59,772 nucleotides of DNA from Candidatus Acidulodesulfobacterium acidiphilum (GTDB taxonomy: Bacteria; SZUA-79; Acidulodesulfobacterales; Acidulodesulfobacteraceae). Under the pieces are notes generated by a model. The model was not told the origin of the DNA. It did not search any database and worked only from the letters and a program-made list of their open reading frames with translations. Positions 30,041-43,788 of the stretch are shown one piece after another. A program made the translations under genes and the position numbers. The stretch spans positions 1 to 59,772 of the forward strand of contig SHMQ01000014.1 in the NCBI GenBank assembly GCA_008534395.1. The letters run 5' to 3'. The first letter of the stretch is position 1; every line of letters starts with the position of its first letter.

Positions 30041-30967
30041 ATGGGTATAAATAAACATCCTTTTTTAAGCGGATTATTTTTCTTGGCAGTATTCGTGGGA
30101 ATATTCGCTATTTTTATTTATTTAATACTTTTTAAGTTTAACGCTAAATCGAACTATAATGTAGTCAGGGGTTCCTCAAATAATGCCATAGGCATAATCG
30201 ATTTAACCGGCACTATTACAAGCTCTTCCGGTTTTATCAGACTGCTGGAGCATTATAAACACGACCCGGACGTTAAAGCCGTTATAATAAGAGTCAATTC
30301 TCCGGGCGGAGAGGTCGCTCCGTCGCAGGCTATTTACGAACAGCTTATGAAATTCAGAAAGCAAAAAAAAGTCGTAGTGTCTATGGATTCCGTAGCGGCT
30401 TCCGGAGCTTACTATATTTCTTCGGCCGCCGACGAAATAATTGCCGAACCGGGAACGCTAACGGGTTCGATAGGCGTTATCATGGAAATGCCGAATTTTT
30501 ATAAACTGATGAGAAAAGTGGGCGTGTCTTATAACTACATAGTAAGCGGACCTTACAAAGATATAGGAACGCCTTTTAAAGAGATGACCCCTATGCAGAG
30601 GAAAAAATTGCAAGGCGTAGTTATGAACGTTTACGGACAGTTCGTATCGGCGGTTGCAAAAGGCAGAAATCTTAAAGTATCTTACGTTAAAAAATTAGCG
30701 AACGGCATGGTTTATTCGGGACAGCAGGCTCTTAAATATCATCTTGTAGACAAACTCGGGGATTTTCAGGATGCCGTTAAGGCCGCGCAGAAATTAGCCG
30801 GAATAAAAGGCAGTGCGACGTTGATATATCCGGTCAAGAAACAGCCGGATTTATTTCAATCTTTTATAAAAAGAGCCGTAAAGTCTTTTGTAAGCAGTAT
30901 AGGCGGTTCTTCTTTTTTTAAGAATCCCGCTTTTGTATCATACGGCGACATGAAGTTAGATTTTTAA
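30041..30967 (+). CDS. sppA: Signal peptide peptidase SppA (short form)
   Basis: A membrane serine protease that degrades leftover signal peptides. The 308-residue protein has one N-terminal transmembrane helix (~8-32), then IRVNSPGGEVAPSQAIYEQL, catalytic Ser region DSVAASGAYYISSAADEI, and GSIGVIMEMPNF; a Lys in GPYKDIGTPF is the likely base. It starts 2 bp after rpsA, so it belongs to the same operon. Confidence 0.93.
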   Translation: MGINKHPFLSGLFFLAVFVGIFAIFIYLILFKFNAKSNYNVVRGSSNNAIGIIDLTGTITSSSGFIRLLEHYKHDPDVKAVIIRVNSPGGEVAPSQAIYEQLMKFRKQKKVVVSMDSVAASGAYYISSAADEIIAEPGTLTGSIGVIMEMPNFYKLMRKVGVSYNYIVSGPYKDIGTPFKEMTPMQRKKLQGVVMNVYGQFVSAVAKGRNLKVSYVKKLANGMVYSGQQALKYHLVDKLGDFQDAVKAAQKLAGIKGSATLIYPVKKQPDLFQSFIKRAVKSFVSSIGGSSFFKNPAFVSYGDMKLDF

Positions 30968-35537: not shown

Positions 35538-36646
35538 TGACCCAGAGAGCTTTGCTTATCGGAATAAATACAGACTCGGATATCGAAAAAAGCAGAGATT
35601 CGTTGGAAGAACTTAAAATGCTTTCGGAAACCGCGGGCGCGGAAAATGTTTTCAGCGTTTTAAAAAACATAAAAAAAATAGACCCGGCTTATTATCTTTC
35701 AAAGGGTATGCTTGAAGATATAAAAGACAAAACGGTTTCGGAAAATGCAGATATAGTAATAATCGACGCCTCTTTAAGTCCTGCTCAGGAGCGCAATCTT
35801 TCGGAATATTTCGATTTAAACGTAATAGACAGGACGAGGCTTATTCTTGACATATTTGCCGTTAACGCAAGGACGGCGGAAAGCAGATATCAGGTAGAAC
35901 TTGCCATGATGAATTATATACTGCCAAGGCTTAAAGGCGCAGGAATAATGCTTTCCAGGACCGGCGCCGGCATAGGAACGAGGGGACCGGGCGAAACTAA
36001 ATTGGAAACGGACAGAAGAAAAATAAGGCTTAAAATTACGCATATAAAGGAAAAGCTGAAACTTTCCGAAAAAACAAGAACGCTTCACAGGTCTAAGAGA
36101 AGCCGTCATGGTTTTTTAACCGCGGCCATCGTAGGATATACCAATTCAGGCAAAACGACGCTTATGAAAAGCTTGACGGGCAAAGGAGAAAAAGGCGAGA
36201 ATAAGCTTTTTGCGACGCTTGGGACAAAAACGGCTTCAATTTACGACGATGCAAAAAAGAAAAAAGTTTTAATATCGGATACCGTAGGTTTTATTCAAAA
36301 TCTTCCGCTTTTTTTAGTCGATTCTTTTAAAGCTACGCTTGAGGAAACGGTCCATGCGGATTTATTGCTGCATGTAATAGACCCCTTACAAAATTCCGTA
36401 ATAGACAAGTCGGGAGAGGTTATTAAAATATTAGACGAAATAGGAGTAAAAGATAAAACGATTCTTACGGTTATAAATAAAACAGACCTTATAGGCGAAG
36501 AACAGGCTGATTTTTTGAAAAATAAGTTTGAAACTGTTACCGGCGGCTCCGTTATAGCCGTTTCCGCTAAAACCGGAAAAAATATAGATTTATTAAAAGA
36601 AAAAATATTCGATTTATTAAATATGGAGCAATATAATGGTAAATAA
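35537..36646 (+). CDS. hflX: GTPase HflX
   Basis: A ribosome-associated GTPase that can split stalled ribosomes under stress. The 369 residues have the HflX N-terminal domain (SLSPAQERNLSEYF, RTRLILDIFAVNARTAES), the linker GTRGPGETKLETDRR, and a G domain with VGYTNSGKTTLMKSL, DTVGFIQNLP and NKTDLIG. It overlaps the following exported-protein gene by 11 bp. Confidence 0.95.
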   Translation: MTQRALLIGINTDSDIEKSRDSLEELKMLSETAGAENVFSVLKNIKKIDPAYYLSKGMLEDIKDKTVSENADIVIIDASLSPAQERNLSEYFDLNVIDRTRLILDIFAVNARTAESRYQVELAMMNYILPRLKGAGIMLSRTGAGIGTRGPGETKLETDRRKIRLKITHIKEKLKLSEKTRTLHRSKRSRHGFLTAAIVGYTNSGKTTLMKSLTGKGEKGENKLFATLGTKTASIYDDAKKKKVLISDTVGFIQNLPLFLVDSFKATLEETVHADLLLHVIDPLQNSVIDKSGEVIKILDEIGVKDKTILTVINKTDLIGEEQADFLKNKFETVTGGSVIAVSAKTGKNIDLLKEKIFDLLNMEQYNGK

Positions 36647-37370
36647 GTTTATGAGCGTTATATTTTTTTTAACGGTTTTATGCATTTCATTCCTCATTTT
36701 TTCTGCCGACGTTTTCGGCATGAGCGTTAAAGTCAAAACTTACGTCGTAATTCCTAAAAGCGAAGCGGCATCCGGACATTCCGCAGACCTTCAGCAAACT
36801 GCAATAAAACGTGCGATAATGCTGTCGGTGAAAACTGCCGTAAAACGTTTTATAGGCAAGAAAATTTTTTTAAAAAAACAAACCGGTATTATTCTTAAAA
36901 AAAATATCTACCCTAACGGACAAAAATATATATACTCGTTTAAGGTTTTAAAGTCGGGAGAATATCTTAATCTTTATTATATAAGCATAAAGACTCATAT
37001 AAGAGCCGGAAGTTTGACAAATGCCCTTAAAACGCTCGGATTTCGTATACTTAAAACGGAGCATCCGGGCGAAAAAGCCGTTTACGGCGTTTATTACGTA
37101 AAATTTACCGGCAGATTTAATAACGGCGATTCAAACCTGTTCCAGAAACTAATGATTAAATATTCGCGTCACCTTAAAAATCTATATATATCTTCGTTTT
37201 CGGAAGATTACGACGAAATAAAAGTTCTTTACTACGGAAGTATCGTCAGGCTGTTAAAGAGGGTAAATTTCATAATAAATTCTTATCTTAACGCAAAAAT
37301 AACTACCGCAGACGATAATACCGTAACGATAAACGTAATCGCTCATAAAGCGGAGAAAAAAACGCATTAA
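36636..37370 (+). CDS. Exported hypothetical protein
   Basis: A 244-residue protein with a clear N-terminal signal sequence (VIFFLTVLCISFLIFSADVFG, processed after FG-M or nearby) and no other membrane segment. The mature part has a long helix (AIKRAIMLSVKTAVKRFIG) and alternating strands. The helix-then-strand start is faintly like assembly proteins of the FlgT-N/LPP20 type, but I cannot support a family. It overlaps hflX by 11 bp, so it is part of the operon. Confidence 0.6.
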   Translation: MVNKFMSVIFFLTVLCISFLIFSADVFGMSVKVKTYVVIPKSEAASGHSADLQQTAIKRAIMLSVKTAVKRFIGKKIFLKKQTGIILKKNIYPNGQKYIYSFKVLKSGEYLNLYYISIKTHIRAGSLTNALKTLGFRILKTEHPGEKAVYGVYYVKFTGRFNNGDSNLFQKLMIKYSRHLKNLYISSFSEDYDEIKVLYYGSIVRLLKRVNFIINSYLNAKITTADDNTVTINVIAHKAEKKTH

Positions 37371-37960: not shown

Positions 37961-38302
37961 ATGTACTATTTTGCACCGGTATCGGATATGTTTGAAACTG
38001 CCGATTATATAGCGGTATACGTAGAATTAGCCGGAGTCGGAAAAGAAGACATAAATATAGAAATAGATGGAGGAGTGCTTGAAGTCAGCGGTATTAAACG
38101 CCGTTTTGGAACTAATGAAGAATGTAATTTTCAAAGAATGGAGAGACCTTTCGGCTTATTCAAAAGAAGATTTAGTCTGCCTTCTTCCGCAAACTATGAA
38201 GGCGTAAAGGCTTCATTCGAGGAAGGTCTGCTTGAAATAATTATTCCCAAAAAAAAGAGAAGCGGAGGATTTAAAATTTCCTGCATTGAAATTAACGATT
38301 GA
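37961..38302 (+). CDS. Hsp20/alpha-crystallin small heat-shock protein
   Basis: A 113-residue sHsp that holds unfolding proteins in a refoldable state. The alpha-crystallin domain runs from ADYIAVYVELAGVGKEDINIEI to FSLPSSANYEGVKASFEEGLLEIIIPKK, including the characteristic Gly-Leu (A-x-x-x-G-x-L) motif; the N-terminal arm is very short. It is the first gene of hsp20-clpC-like-DUF1844-clpB, so chaperone holding and disaggregation are co-encoded. Confidence 0.92.
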   Translation: MYYFAPVSDMFETADYIAVYVELAGVGKEDINIEIDGGVLEVSGIKRRFGTNEECNFQRMERPFGLFKRRFSLPSSANYEGVKASFEEGLLEIIIPKKKRSGGFKISCIEIND

Positions 38303-38347: not shown

Positions 38348-40681
38348 ATGTTTAATTTAGATTATTACGAGGATAAGCTTTCAGAAAGCGGATATAGGGT
38401 TCTAACGATTTCTATAGAAGAATCGAAAAGAAGAAAACATTTTTATCTTGGACCGGAGCATATTTTTTATGCCCTGACTTTGGTTGACGAGGATCTTTTA
38501 AATGAAATTTTTTTGGAGTTAAGAATCGACAAAAGAAAGATAATGAAACTTTTGAACGATTATATGATGTCTTCCGACCAGTATGTCGGAGAAGGAATGA
38601 AAATTCCGCTTCAAACAAGAAATTTATTTAAAAGCGCTTACGATTACGCTCAGAGCGCGGGCAGAAACCTTATAGAATCTTCGGATTTTTTAATGGTAAT
38701 GTTTCAGGAGCCGAGTTCCGCTCCAAACAAAGTTTTTAAAGCGCTCGGCGTGGATTCCGTGGTGCTTGCCGATAAGATTTTTCAAAAAATGAGGGAAAGG
38801 AGGAGCAGAAGCGACGAAAACAGAAGAAAATACGACCTGCCTTATACCCTAAGACAGCATGCCGTAAATTTAAGCAAGCTTGCAATTATGGATAAACTGC
38901 CTTTAGTATTCGGAAGGGAAGAAGAAATTACCAGACTGATGGAAATACTCTGCCATATAGACAGACCTAATTCCGCTATAATAGTCGGCGAACCCGGCGT
39001 TGGAAAGACGGCGGTAGTAGAAGGCCTTGCTAGAAAAATAGAACTCGAACCCTACAGCGTTCCGGCAAGGCTCAGAAATAAAATTATAGTAAATCTTCAG
39101 ATGAATTCCTTAGTGGCAGGAACGGTTTTCAGGGGCATGTTCGAAGACAGGATGGAAAAGATAATAAACGAACTGAAGTCCAGAAAAAATATAATTTTAT
39201 TCGTCGACGAAGTGCATACCATTATCGGTGCCGGTTCTGCGATAGCCGTTCCGAGCGATGCGGCAAATATATTAAAATCTTCCCTAGCAAGAGGCGAAGT
39301 GCAGATGATTGGAGCTACGACCCTTTCGGAATACAAGGAGTTTATTTCCGAAGACGAAGCCCTTGCCCGCCGATTCAGATTAGTAAACATAAACGAGCCT
39401 AATGTAGAGGATACGAAAAGAATACTCTACGGGCTTAAAAGAAGATTCGAAGATACTTACGGCGTTGAAATAGAAGATTCCGCTCTTGACGAGTCGCTTA
39501 AACTGTCGTCCCGCTATTCCAAGTCTTTAAGGCTTCCGGACAAAGCTATCGGATGGGTAGATTCAGGATGCGTAAAAGCCGAAATATACAACGACGATAA
39601 AATAGTTAAAAAGGAGAATATCTATCAGGTAATCGCGCAGGAAACCGGCATGCCTATAGATTTGATTAAAAGAGACGTTTTAGAAAGGTTTCAGGATATG
39701 GAGGAATTTTTCTCAAAAAGGATAGTCGGACAGAAAGACGCCGTTAATTCTTTAGCAAAGCATTTAAGGCTTAATAAAGGTCCTTTGAAAGGAAATTTTA
39801 ACAGGCCGGATGCCGTGCTTCTTTTTTTAGGCCCCACGGGAGTCGGAAAAACGGAAACTGCAAAGGCAATGGCGGAGTACCTGTTCGGTTCCGAAAGAAA
39901 TATAATCAGGATAGATATGTCGGAATATAAAGACGGCTCGATAGCGGTCGATAAATTAATAGGTATGCCGAGAGGCATAGTCGGTTCTTCGAGAGGCGGA
40001 ACTTTAACCAATCAGGTAAAAGATAACCCCTATTCCGTAATTCTTTTGGATGAAATCGAAAAAGCCAGCGATCTCGTATTTAATCTTTTCCTTCAGGTTT
40101 TCGACGAAGGTTTTTTAACCGACGGAAGAGGCAAAAGAGTTTATTTTTCGGATTCCGTAATTATTATGACGTCGAATCTGGGTTCGCATGAATTTTCAAA
40201 ATTTACGAAACCGCTCGGTTTTATAGAATCAAACGATATAGTAAAGTCTATTAAGGGAACGATAAATAAAGAAATCGAAAACTTTTTTTCTCCGGAATTT
40301 ATCAACAGGATAGACGATATCGTTATTTTTTCGCCGCTTACTAAAGAAGAAGTTAAAAAAATCGCATTAATGCATATAGAAACTATAAATAAAACTATGT
40401 CGGAACACCACAAAGAAATTATAGTTACCGACGCCGCTTTGGAAAAATTAGTAGAGACCGGCTACAGTTCTAAATTCGGAGCGAGATTTTTAAAGCGTAC
40501 CGTCGACGACCTCATCAAGGTACCGCTGACGCTTAAATGGAAAGATGGAGATATATTTACCGCCGAACTTAAAGACGGCGAGATATCTATCTCATACGAT
40601 AAAAATCCTGAAGACGGCGATATTGCAAAAAAAGTTAAAAACGGAAAAGAAAAATACAAGGAGGAACCTGATTATGCCTGA
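38348..40681 (+). CDS. ClpC/ClpA-like double AAA+ unfoldase with altered pore loop
   Basis: A 777-residue Hsp100 protein: N-domain (~1-140), AAA1 with GEPGVGKT (~214-221) and IILFVDEVHT, and AAA2 with GPTGVGKTE (~495) and VILLDEIEKA. There is no ClpB-type coiled-coil middle domain. An LGF loop (KPLGFIES, ~621) sits where ClpC/ClpA carry the ClpP-docking tripeptide, so it may feed ClpP. In AAA2 the pore loop reads GIVG instead of the usual GYVG, losing the substrate-gripping aromatic; in AAA1 it is VFRG rather than KYRG. It is coupled to DUF1844 by an 8-bp overlap. An alternative is an atypical disaggregase. Confidence 0.85.
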   Translation: MFNLDYYEDKLSESGYRVLTISIEESKRRKHFYLGPEHIFYALTLVDEDLLNEIFLELRIDKRKIMKLLNDYMMSSDQYVGEGMKIPLQTRNLFKSAYDYAQSAGRNLIESSDFLMVMFQEPSSAPNKVFKALGVDSVVLADKIFQKMRERRSRSDENRRKYDLPYTLRQHAVNLSKLAIMDKLPLVFGREEEITRLMEILCHIDRPNSAIIVGEPGVGKTAVVEGLARKIELEPYSVPARLRNKIIVNLQMNSLVAGTVFRGMFEDRMEKIINELKSRKNIILFVDEVHTIIGAGSAIAVPSDAANILKSSLARGEVQMIGATTLSEYKEFISEDEALARRFRLVNINEPNVEDTKRILYGLKRRFEDTYGVEIEDSALDESLKLSSRYSKSLRLPDKAIGWVDSGCVKAEIYNDDKIVKKENIYQVIAQETGMPIDLIKRDVLERFQDMEEFFSKRIVGQKDAVNSLAKHLRLNKGPLKGNFNRPDAVLLFLGPTGVGKTETAKAMAEYLFGSERNIIRIDMSEYKDGSIAVDKLIGMPRGIVGSSRGGTLTNQVKDNPYSVILLDEIEKASDLVFNLFLQVFDEGFLTDGRGKRVYFSDSVIIMTSNLGSHEFSKFTKPLGFIESNDIVKSIKGTINKEIENFFSPEFINRIDDIVIFSPLTKEEVKKIALMHIETINKTMSEHHKEIIVTDAALEKLVETGYSSKFGARFLKRTVDDLIKVPLTLKWKDGDIFTAELKDGEISISYDKNPEDGDIAKKVKNGKEKYKEEPDYA

Positions 40682-41108
40682 TAAGGAAGCCGAAAAATCT
40701 TTTAAAGTAGTAGATAAAAGGAAGATTTCGGAAACCGAAGAAATAAAAGAAACACAGAATACCGAAGAAGCGAAACCGGCGGAAAAAGCCGATGAAAATA
40801 CGGCGGGAACCGCTGCCGGTTCCGAAAAAAAAGCCGCAGACGAAACTGCCGCCGATATGCCTGATTTTGAAGCAGATTTTGCAACGTTCATCTATTCGCT
40901 TAATACGCAGGCGCTTCTTTTTATGGGTAAGATACCGAATCCTATATCCAAGAAATACGAGAAAGACTTAGGAACGGCTAAATACTTGATAGATACTATA
41001 GACATGCTTTCTAAAAAGACCAAAGGAAATCTTGACGAAAATGAAGCCAAACTTATAGAAAATATTTTATACGATCTTAGAATGGCTTATATTTCGGAAA
41101 AAAAATAA
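40674..41108 (+). CDS. DUF1844 family protein
   Basis: A 144-residue protein. Residues ~1-60 are acidic, Glu/Ala/Lys-rich and probably disordered; residues ~65-140 match DUF1844 (FATFIYSLNTQALLFMGKIP, then LGTAKYLIDTIDMLSKKTKGNL). ATG 40674 is chosen because AAGGAGGA ends about 8 bases before it and it overlaps the clp stop by 8 bp; the frame is open to 40545 but that lies inside clp. Function unknown; its fixed place between two Hsp100 genes suggests a role in protein quality control. Confidence 0.85.
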   Translation: MPDKEAEKSFKVVDKRKISETEEIKETQNTEEAKPAEKADENTAGTAAGSEKKAADETAADMPDFEADFATFIYSLNTQALLFMGKIPNPISKKYEKDLGTAKYLIDTIDMLSKKTKGNLDENEAKLIENILYDLRMAYISEKK

Positions 41109-41128: not shown

Positions 41129-43741
41129 ATGAATCTTAATAATTTTACCATAAAATCTCAGGAATTAATAGAACTTACGATAAATACGGCTAAAGAGTCT
41201 AAAAATCCGGAAATATCGGATTTGCATTTATTATATGCCCTGCTTAATTACGACGAAAACAGTATAGCATTATCTATTTTTAAAAAAATAGGCATAGACC
41301 TAAAATCTTTTACCGAACAATTAGAAACGGCGCTGTCTAAACTTGCCGTTGTAGAAGGAGGAATGGAGCCGGCTTTTTCTTCGTCGATGAAGCGTATTTT
41401 AGACGCCGCGGAAAAGAATAAAAATTTCATGAAAGACGATTTTGTGTCCGTCGAACATTTCGTTCTTGCAATGTTTGACGTCAAAGATACAAAATCATAC
41501 GAGTTATTAACTAAATTTGGATTAACTAAAGACAACGTCCTTAAAGTTCTTACCGATATCAGAGGCAATACGAAAGTTACCGACCAAAATCCCGAAGATA
41601 AATATCAGGCTTTGGAAAAATATACCGTAAACTTAACACAGCTTGCAAAATCCGGAAAAATAGATCCGGTTATAGGCAGAGACGGCGAAATAAGAAGAAT
41701 TATGGAAGTACTGTCCAGAAGGACTAAAAATAATCCCGTACTGATAGGAGATCCGGGCGTCGGCAAGACGGCGATAGTCGAAGGACTTGCTAAAAGAATC
41801 GCCGACGGCGACGTTCCGGAAATCCTTAAAGAAAAAGCAGTTCTTTCGTTAGACCTTGGCTCTTTAATTGCGGGGGCTAAATACAGGGGCGAATTTGAAG
41901 ACAGGCTTAAAGCGGTCGTAAAAGAGATAAAGTCTTCCGAAGGCAGGATAATAATATTTATAGACGAACTGCACAATCTCGTAGGCGCGGGAAAATCCGA
42001 AGGAGCGATGGATGCATCCAATCTTCTGAAACCGGCTCTTGCAAGAGGGGAGTTAAGGGCTATAGGAGCGACTACGCTTGACGAATACAGAAAATACATA
42101 GAAAAAGACGCCGCTCTGGAAAGAAGATTTCAGCCTATTTTCGTAGACGAACCGTCCGTAGAAGATACTATTTCTATACTCAGGGGACTGAAAGAAAGAT
42201 ACGAAGCATATCACGGCATAAGAATAAAAGATTCAGCCTTAATTGCGGCGGCTACGCTGTCGCACAGATATATTACCGACAGATTTTTGCCGGATAAGGC
42301 TATAGACCTTATAGATGAAGCTTCGGCAAAATTAAGAATAGAAATCGATTCTCTTCCCGCCGCTCTCGACGAAGTCCAAAGAAATATAATCAGAATTAAA
42401 ATAGAGCAGGAAGCGCTAAAAAAAGAAAAAGACGAACAATCTAAAAAAAGATTAAAAGAGCTTGACGAAGAGCTTGCAAATCTGGAAGAAGATTTCAATC
42501 AGAAGAAAGCAAAGTGGCATAACGAAAAAGAATATATCCAAAAAATAGGCGAAATTAAAAAAGAAATAGATTCTCAGAGAATTGAGGAACAGAGATACGA
42601 AAGAGAAGGCAAATACGATAAAGTGGCGGAAATAAGATACGGCAAATTAAACGAACTTGAAAAGAAACTTGAAGACTTAAATAAATCTCTCATTGCAATG
42701 CAGAAAAACGGAAGCTTTTTAAAAGAAGAAGTAGATTCCGAAGACATTGCAAGAGTAGTTGCTAAATGGACCGGAATACCCGTTTCTAAACTTATGGAAG
42801 GAGAAAAAGAGAAACTTCTTCAAATAGAAGAGCACCTTCACGACAGGGTGATATCGCAAGATGAAGCAATCAACAGCGTGGCTAATACCATCAGGCGTTC
42901 CCGCGCCGGTTTATCTGACGCAAATAAACCGATAGGTTCATTTATGTTTCTAGGACCGACCGGCGTCGGAAAGACGGAACTGGCAAAAGCCCTCGCCGAG
43001 TTTTTATTCGACGACGAAAACAATATAGTAAGAATAGATATGTCGGAGTATATGGAAAAGCATGCGGTATCGAGACTTATAGGCGCTCCTCCGGGCTACG
43101 TCGGGTACGAAGAGGGCGGACAGCTTACGGAAGCGGTAAGAAGGCGTCCTTACAGCGTAGTTTTATTCGACGAAGTAGAGAAAGCTCATCAGGACGTGTT
43201 TAACGTAATGCTTCAGCTTCTCGACGACGGAAGGCTTACCGACGGACAGGGAAGAACGGTCGATTTTAAAAATACGATTGTCATTATGACATCCAACATA
43301 GGTTCCGATATTATACAAAGTTACAGCGGCAAGCAGTATGAAGAAATGAAAAACAGCGTGAACGGGATTTTAAAAAATTATTTCAGGCCCGAGTTTTTAA
43401 ACAGATTAGACGATATAATAATATTCCACGCTTTAAGCGAAAACGATATAATGAAAATCGTCGAAATACAGCTCAAAAAACTTATTAACGTACTTAAGGA
43501 AAGAGGCATAGACGCCGAATATACGGATTCTTTGCTTAAGTTTATAGCAATGGAAGGTTACGATCCGATTTATGGAGCAAGACCCTTAAAGAGAGCGGTT
43601 AAGTCTTTCATACAGGATAAAATTGCCGTCGATTTATTGTCCGGCGCAATCGTTTCCGGCGATTCGATAGTTATAGACTATAAGGAAGAATCGGGGGTAA
43701 TCGTCGAAAAGGTTACTGTAGTTACCCCCGAACCTGCCTAA
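41129..43741 (+). CDS. clpB: Chaperone ClpB, protein disaggregase
   Basis: An 870-residue Hsp100 disaggregase working with DnaK to resolve aggregates. Order: Clp N-domain, AAA1 with GDPGVGKT (~207) and FIDELHNLVG, the long coiled-coil middle domain (~400-525, ALKKEKDEQSKKRLKELDEE), AAA2 with GPTGVGKTE (~609), canonical pore loops KYRGEFEDR and GYVGYEEGG, and arginine-finger EFLNRLDD. There is no LGF docking loop, as expected for ClpB. It is 20 bp after DUF1844 and ends before a strong hairpin. Confidence 0.97.
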   Translation: MNLNNFTIKSQELIELTINTAKESKNPEISDLHLLYALLNYDENSIALSIFKKIGIDLKSFTEQLETALSKLAVVEGGMEPAFSSSMKRILDAAEKNKNFMKDDFVSVEHFVLAMFDVKDTKSYELLTKFGLTKDNVLKVLTDIRGNTKVTDQNPEDKYQALEKYTVNLTQLAKSGKIDPVIGRDGEIRRIMEVLSRRTKNNPVLIGDPGVGKTAIVEGLAKRIADGDVPEILKEKAVLSLDLGSLIAGAKYRGEFEDRLKAVVKEIKSSEGRIIIFIDELHNLVGAGKSEGAMDASNLLKPALARGELRAIGATTLDEYRKYIEKDAALERRFQPIFVDEPSVEDTISILRGLKERYEAYHGIRIKDSALIAAATLSHRYITDRFLPDKAIDLIDEASAKLRIEIDSLPAALDEVQRNIIRIKIEQEALKKEKDEQSKKRLKELDEELANLEEDFNQKKAKWHNEKEYIQKIGEIKKEIDSQRIEEQRYEREGKYDKVAEIRYGKLNELEKKLEDLNKSLIAMQKNGSFLKEEVDSEDIARVVAKWTGIPVSKLMEGEKEKLLQIEEHLHDRVISQDEAINSVANTIRRSRAGLSDANKPIGSFMFLGPTGVGKTELAKALAEFLFDDENNIVRIDMSEYMEKHAVSRLIGAPPGYVGYEEGGQLTEAVRRRPYSVVLFDEVEKAHQDVFNVMLQLLDDGRLTDGQGRTVDFKNTIVIMTSNIGSDIIQSYSGKQYEEMKNSVNGILKNYFRPEFLNRLDDIIIFHALSENDIMKIVEIQLKKLINVLKERGIDAEYTDSLLKFIAMEGYDPIYGARPLKRAVKSFIQDKIAVDLLSGAIVSGDSIVIDYKEESGVIVEKVTVVTPEPA

Positions 43742-43747
43742 AACTCA

Positions 43748-43788
43748 TTTTGCCGTTTTGACAATTTATATTTGTCAAAACGGCAAAA
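43748..43788. promoter_or_regulatory. 17-bp perfect palindrome upstream of the htrA sigma-54 promoter
   Basis: TTTTGCCGTTTTGACAA (43748-43764) and its exact reverse complement (43772-43788) flank a 7-base centre. The centre lies 109 bp upstream of the GG of the htrA -24 element, the usual distance for an enhancer-binding-protein site. It could alternatively be the clpB terminator, but no T-tract follows the second arm. Confidence 0.55.

Follow-up and report, generated by a model that had tools for sequence, protein, structure and literature searches.

An apparently undescribed Hsp100/Clp subfamily with isoleucine in place of the second-ring pore-loop tyrosine

In AAA+ unfoldases, the pore-1 loop is said to have a conserved or invariant aromatic residue (PMC9663308, PMC5741831). 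For Hsp104, the tyrosine of the second ring has been reported to be essential, and flanking aliphatic residues also matter for substrate contact (PMC5741831). The grip of ClpX is largely a non-specific hydrophobic contact (PMC6677533). A literature search, which was thin on subscription journals, turned up a non-aromatic pore loop only for the eukaryotic Cdc48/p97. There, the aromatic residue of the first-ring loop is naturally lost, and restoring it in Cdc48 is lethal, apparently by forced threading and degradation of essential proteins (PMC5511170, PMC9098461). The same search found no description of a lost second-ring aromatic residue for any Hsp100 protein, and no paper with the motif GMPRGIVGS, which is the subject of this analysis.

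The motif was met in a Clp protein encoded in a contig of Candidatus Acidulodesulfobacterium acidiphilum, here called the window, which is the whole analysed stretch of 59,772 nucleotides. ClpC of Staphylococcus, Bacillus and Mycobacterium likewise has two AAA+ rings, an N domain and a GF-type ClpP loop. ClpC chains are also the nearest solved structures to the window protein, both by sequence and by the fold of its AlphaFold2 model (mean pLDDT 80.5), and a sequence search of the solved structures found no member of its subfamily. In contrast to ClpC, the subfamily has no short coiled-coil middle domain, reads GIVG instead of GYVG and [VMI][FL]RG instead of KYRG, and falls into another clade. 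E. coli ClpA has the same domain order without a middle domain, a ClpP-type loop and a close length (758 compared to 777 residues), and a similar cellular role may be supposed. However, its Tyr540 and Tyr259 are replaced, the family has no ClpS, and the clade is again a different one. ClpB and Hsp104 have the Hsp100 core in common with the window protein and occur in the same heat-shock clusters, whereas the window protein has a ClpP-type loop and a non-aromatic AAA2 loop, has no middle domain and is adjoined by a true ClpB. Cdc48/p97 resembles the subfamily in the natural and fixed loss of the aromatic residue from the pore-1 loop of one ring, but it belongs to a different AAA+ family and the loss concerns its first ring, compared to the second ring, or in some members both rings, in the subfamily.

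Protein architecture and phylogenetic position

The ORF of this GIVG-type Hsp100/Clp ATPase spans 38348..40681 (+) and encodes 777 amino acids (AA), exactly as given in the earlier note. Pfam matches to AAA, AAA_lid_9, AAA_2 and ClpB_D2-small show two AAA+ modules, which together with the Walker A/B, sensor and arginine residues place the protein in Hsp100/Clp class I. The N domain (residues ~1-146; 38348..38785, +) is Clp_N-like, with one weak repeat recognised (PF02861, 30.5 bits at residues 24-72) and helices in the model. Residues 414-420 align with residues 405-471 of ClpC, so that the middle domain is missing, in line with the earlier statement that the protein has none of the ClpB type. 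None of the NCBIfam equivalogs accepts the protein, since its scores are below the cut-offs for ClpA (TIGR02639, 590.9 bits, cut-off 993.15), ClpB (TIGR03346, 622 bits, cut-off 1232) and ClpV (542 bits, cut-off 885).

In a quick, unrooted maximum-likelihood tree of 27 proteins, built without named ClpE, ClpL and ClpV, all GIVG proteins are on one side of a branch with an SH-aLRT support of 100 and a length of 1.49, and the window protein is outside the ClpA clade, the ClpC clade and the ClpB group. The scores against the window protein show a corresponding gap. Full-length subfamily members reach about 777 bits or more and other Hsp100s at most 485, and five full-length proteins with 439-453 bits are ordinary Hsp100s with GYVG. 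Divergence among the members amounts to about 50% identity. Judged by their sequences, the GIVG proteins form a separate, apparently undescribed Hsp100 subfamily outside ClpA, ClpB and ClpC. The earlier designation as ClpC-like is therefore only partly appropriate, as the best sequence and fold matches are indeed to ClpC, but the domain order is that of ClpA and the tree places the protein in neither clade.

The subfamily was found in Ca. Acidulodesulfobacteriota, Desulfobacterota, Acidobacteriota and smaller groups, with the phylum labels taken from the named loci through which each genome was reached. It is carried by 8 of 9 genomes in one small phylum, by 56 of 395 in the large phylum holding the genomes first met as Deltaproteobacteria records and by about 57 of 396 in the phylum that includes an Acidobacteriota record. 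A domain-wide sample contained 37 carriers among 386 genomes, 27 of which belong to the window's own family. At some loci (L195, L196, L198, L200 and similar), the subfamily match has one stop inside the matched stretch. As the open frames there are near full length, the match probably overruns the C-terminal stop.

Several other origins were considered and rejected. The best 80 viral matches are ordinary Clp proteins with Tyr, which does not fit a phage origin, and among the matches listed, those from plasmids are at most 35% identical. A role as a defence system was discarded because the PADLOC matches are generic AAA proteins.

Channel loops of the two rings

The AAA2 pore-1 loop GMPRGIVGS (residues 539-547; 39962..39988, +) has Ile544 at the site of the conserved tyrosine, as GMPRG-I544-VGS aligns with GAPPG-Y540-VGF of E. 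coli ClpA. Residues 541-547 of the AlphaFold2 model have a pLDDT below 50, as for a mobile loop. Protein similarity, rather than the loop motif, served to gather the subfamily members, using named genomes, phylum searches and re-read hits. For the named genomes, patterns outside the pore loop were used, and the 42 loci found this way are an undercount of the subfamily. The nonapeptide is identical in 112/112 subfamily ORFs reaching the loop in the main protein-similarity set and in 48 further ORFs, a few of which are re-reads of the same genomes. It is invariant over 157 distinct DNA versions (138 distinct protein windows), which is the safer count because the number of unique ORFs is slightly too high, with some genomes entered twice. 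Every ortholog of the window's family with a readable gene has it as well.

Position 544 is Ile in 113/113 aligned subfamily sequences, in which the window protein is counted twice and some genomes are near-identical, compared to Tyr in 125/125 other Hsp100s of the ClpA/B/C type, among which are viral proteins as well as the ClpA and ClpB of E. coli. Neither Phe nor Tyr was seen at this position in any member, and the tyrosine of the AAA2 GYVG loop, a usual but non-defining feature of class I, is absent from all readable members. The earlier note had contrasted GIVG with the GYVG of the family and had suggested aligning orthologs, with Tyr among them or common Ile in ordinary ClpA/ClpC proteins as the observations that would speak against it. 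This alignment agrees with the note: Ile is fixed in every subfamily ORF reaching the loop, and ordinary ClpA, ClpB and ClpC proteins all have Tyr. A strain-specific error, a pseudogene or a misassembly has nothing in its favor beyond the unusual motif. It is refuted, with a probability close to nil, by the identical motif in 157 distinct sequences with uninterrupted ORFs, in which Ile544 is encoded by different codons (ATC, ATA and ATT).

The altered residue is not the only change in the channel. The AAA1 pore-1 loop reads VFRG (residues 260-263; 39125..39136, +) where E. coli ClpA has KYRG, a difference that had already been pointed out correctly. Across the subfamily, KYRG[EQD] is changed to [VMI][FL]RGM, with VFRG in 38, MLRG in 31, IFRG in 22 and MFRG in 21 of the 112 aligned members. 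Due to its VFRG loop, the first ring of the window protein is still aromatic (F261), and Phe is likewise kept in most members. The AAA2 pore-2 loop region YKDGSIAV (residues 527-534; 39926..39949, +) has a one-residue insertion compared to ClpA and ClpB, and position 532 is I, V or L in 107/112 members. In the comparison with the 125 other Hsp100s, 36 positions are fixed in the subfamily yet rare elsewhere. Those in or near the channel include Met540 for Ala/Ser, Arg542 for Pro (Pro in 125/125 others) and Ser547 for Tyr/His/Phe.

Members combining MLRG with GIVG, for example those at the acidobacterial loci L060-L063, L069 and L070, have non-aromatic pore-1 loops in both rings.

The remaining functional sites are conserved. 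The LGF loop (residues 623-625; 40214..40222, +) is in the ClpP-docking position, as the earlier note had proposed, and the pattern [LMF]G[FY] is present in 112/112 members (LGF 88, MGF 21, FGF 2, LGY 1) and not in the ClpB sequences of the same alignment. Both rings retain their Walker A/B, sensor and arginine residues in 112/112 members, the one exception being Thr221, which is Ser in three. Since the catalytic residues are kept and the channel loops are changed, it is the channel and not the motor that has diverged. On this sequence evidence, ClpC-like is too weak a label for what is a separate Hsp100 subfamily with a wholly altered channel rather than a ClpC with one substitution.

In another explanation, the second ring would no longer thread but serve as an ATPase, a gate and the docking ring for ClpP, with the pulling left to the first ring (VFRG or MFRG). 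In its favor, most members have lost the grip residue from the second ring only. Nevertheless, this explanation is very improbable, because Leu takes the place of the first-ring aromatic residue (MLRG) in 31 of 113 members, including acidobacterial ones, which leaves these aromatic in neither ring, and because the loop of the second ring shows complete conservation, as a disused loop would not.

Gene neighbourhood, ClpP and proposed role

The cluster begins with an hsp20 small heat-shock protein gene (37961..38302, +; PF00011, 62 bits). The Clp gene is followed by a DUF1844 gene (40545..41108, +; PF08899, 98 bits), whose probable start at 40674 (ATG, MPDKEAEK...) results in an overlap with the 3' end of the Clp gene. 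Next is an ordinary clpB (41129..43741, +; TIGR03346, 1322 bits, cut-off 1232) with a GYVG loop and a middle domain. A terminator-like scan detected a perfect 17-bp hairpin directly 3' of the clpB stop (43748..43788, +), which is likely the transcription end of the cluster. The association with Hsp20, DUF1844 and ClpB described earlier is thus supported by Pfam and NCBIfam, and the link to heat-shock genes extends far beyond the operon of the window. Within the window's family, the order pgi-miaA-hflX-...-hsp20-clp-DUF1844-clpB-degP-selB is kept. There, hsp20 is upstream of the Clp gene in 22/25 loci (by recognised ORF), and DUF1844 is directly 3' of it in 24/24 readable loci, as it is in many unrelated loci in other phyla. 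Beyond the family, 91 distinct loci were compared, one of which (L066) is a family member, and in 72 of them the Clp gene is preceded within 1.5 kb by a dnaJ, dnaK, grpE, groEL, hsp20 or htpX gene in the same orientation. The order clpB-dnaK-dnaJ-clp is common in Desulfobacterota. With up to 3 mismatches allowed, a scan of the window gave no CIRCE operator (TTAGCACTC-N9-GAGTGCTAA), and for this reason heat regulation is proposed only from the gene order. A scan of the window for sigma-70-like promoters gave too many chance matches to be usable.

The gene order with dnaK, dnaJ, grpE, hsp20 and clpB would also suit a disaggregase or remodeller of the ClpG or ClpL kind, acting without ClpP and together with the adjoining chaperones. 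ClpB and Hsp104 use their middle domain for cooperation with Hsp70, and the window protein has no such domain. In addition, the docking-type loop is kept in all 112 members, and canonical ClpB is already encoded in the carrier genomes checked. A disaggregase role is therefore considered improbable.

Together with the hydrophobic-Gly-hydrophobic docking loop, the distribution of ClpP is as expected for a ClpP partner, as ClpP is present in 26/26 family genomes (one with a weak match only) and in 21/21 other carriers. In the window's genome, clpP is part of tig-clpP-clpX, and this ClpX has a normal GYVG loop. ClpS was found in 0/29 family genomes, so the adaptor typical of ClpA is lacking. True ClpA is present in 1/40 carriers compared to 11/40 non-carriers of one phylum (Fisher p 0.003, a value that ignores kinship), and further ClpA/ClpC-like proteins are frequent in the Acidobacteriota carriers. 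The ORF at 30041-30967 encodes a Peptidase S49 (SppA-type) protease that has a weak ClpP-like match and surfaces in ClpP searches as well.

The rarity of co-occurring ClpA, seen in the one phylum sampled, would be expected if the subfamily were an ordinary equivalent of ClpA or ClpC. In this case, Ile would be a tolerated hydrophobic residue, fixed early along with compensating Arg542, Ser547 and the pore-2 insertion, and stable proteins would be threaded as by ClpA. The agreement in fold, in catalytic residues and in the docking loop, as well as the mostly non-specific hydrophobic grip of ClpX (PMC6677533), are consistent with this. However, if Ile were simply tolerated, the nonapeptide would hardly be invariant among proteins with about 50% identity, which points to a specific requirement, and no member has Phe or Tyr at position 544. 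Ordinary equivalence is therefore unlikely, although it deserves serious consideration.

The earlier note had suggested a different threading mode or a different substrate, which the loop sequences may indeed indicate. The explanation preferred here, for which confidence and doubt are about balanced, is a heat-shock ClpP-partner unfoldase whose second ring grips softly by aliphatic residues and takes up proteins that are destabilised beforehand. Such a protein would be heat-regulated and ClpP-bound, and would hand its substrates to the ClpP encoded by tig-clpP-clpX, in genomes that often have no ClpA. Its second ring, the main motor ring, would hold the substrate by Ile544 and Val545 of the pore-1 loop and by an aliphatic side chain of the longer pore-2 loop, with aliphatic contacts replacing the stacked-tyrosine staircase. 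This hold would be weaker and more slippery, fit for proteins that are already unfolded or loosely bound by Hsp20, DnaK/DnaJ or GroEL. The precedent of Cdc48 suggests that the missing aromatic residue limits forceful threading, and by analogy with Cdc48/p97 stable native proteins might be spared. Against this explanation, the second-ring tyrosine is reported to be essential in Hsp104, so that a second ring lacking it might be unable to unfold proteins. Arg542 could also itself supply grip, and judging by the alignment, an aromatic residue of the F261 type is still present in most first rings.

More generally, and more tentatively, with doubt prevailing to some extent, this multi-phylum subfamily may thread and unfold productively without the second-ring pore-1 aromatic residue, and in acidobacterial members without one in either ring, by an aliphatic pore-1/pore-2 clamp tuned to destabilised substrates delivered by chaperones. 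Since the pore-1 aromatic residue underlies the hand-over-hand grip model, a subfamily with Ile and coordinated channel-loop changes in several phyla is a natural experiment. It allows asking whether aromaticity sets the unfolding force or the substrate range, and it suggests a candidate ClpP partner, so far unannotated, for bacteria in which ClpA is often missing.

Two genes of the neighbourhood deserve mention. DUF1844 is a candidate Clp partner or adaptor. The ORF at 36636-37370 (244 AA) has no Pfam match and is conserved at a similar position in almost every family locus, with reversed orientation in some of them.
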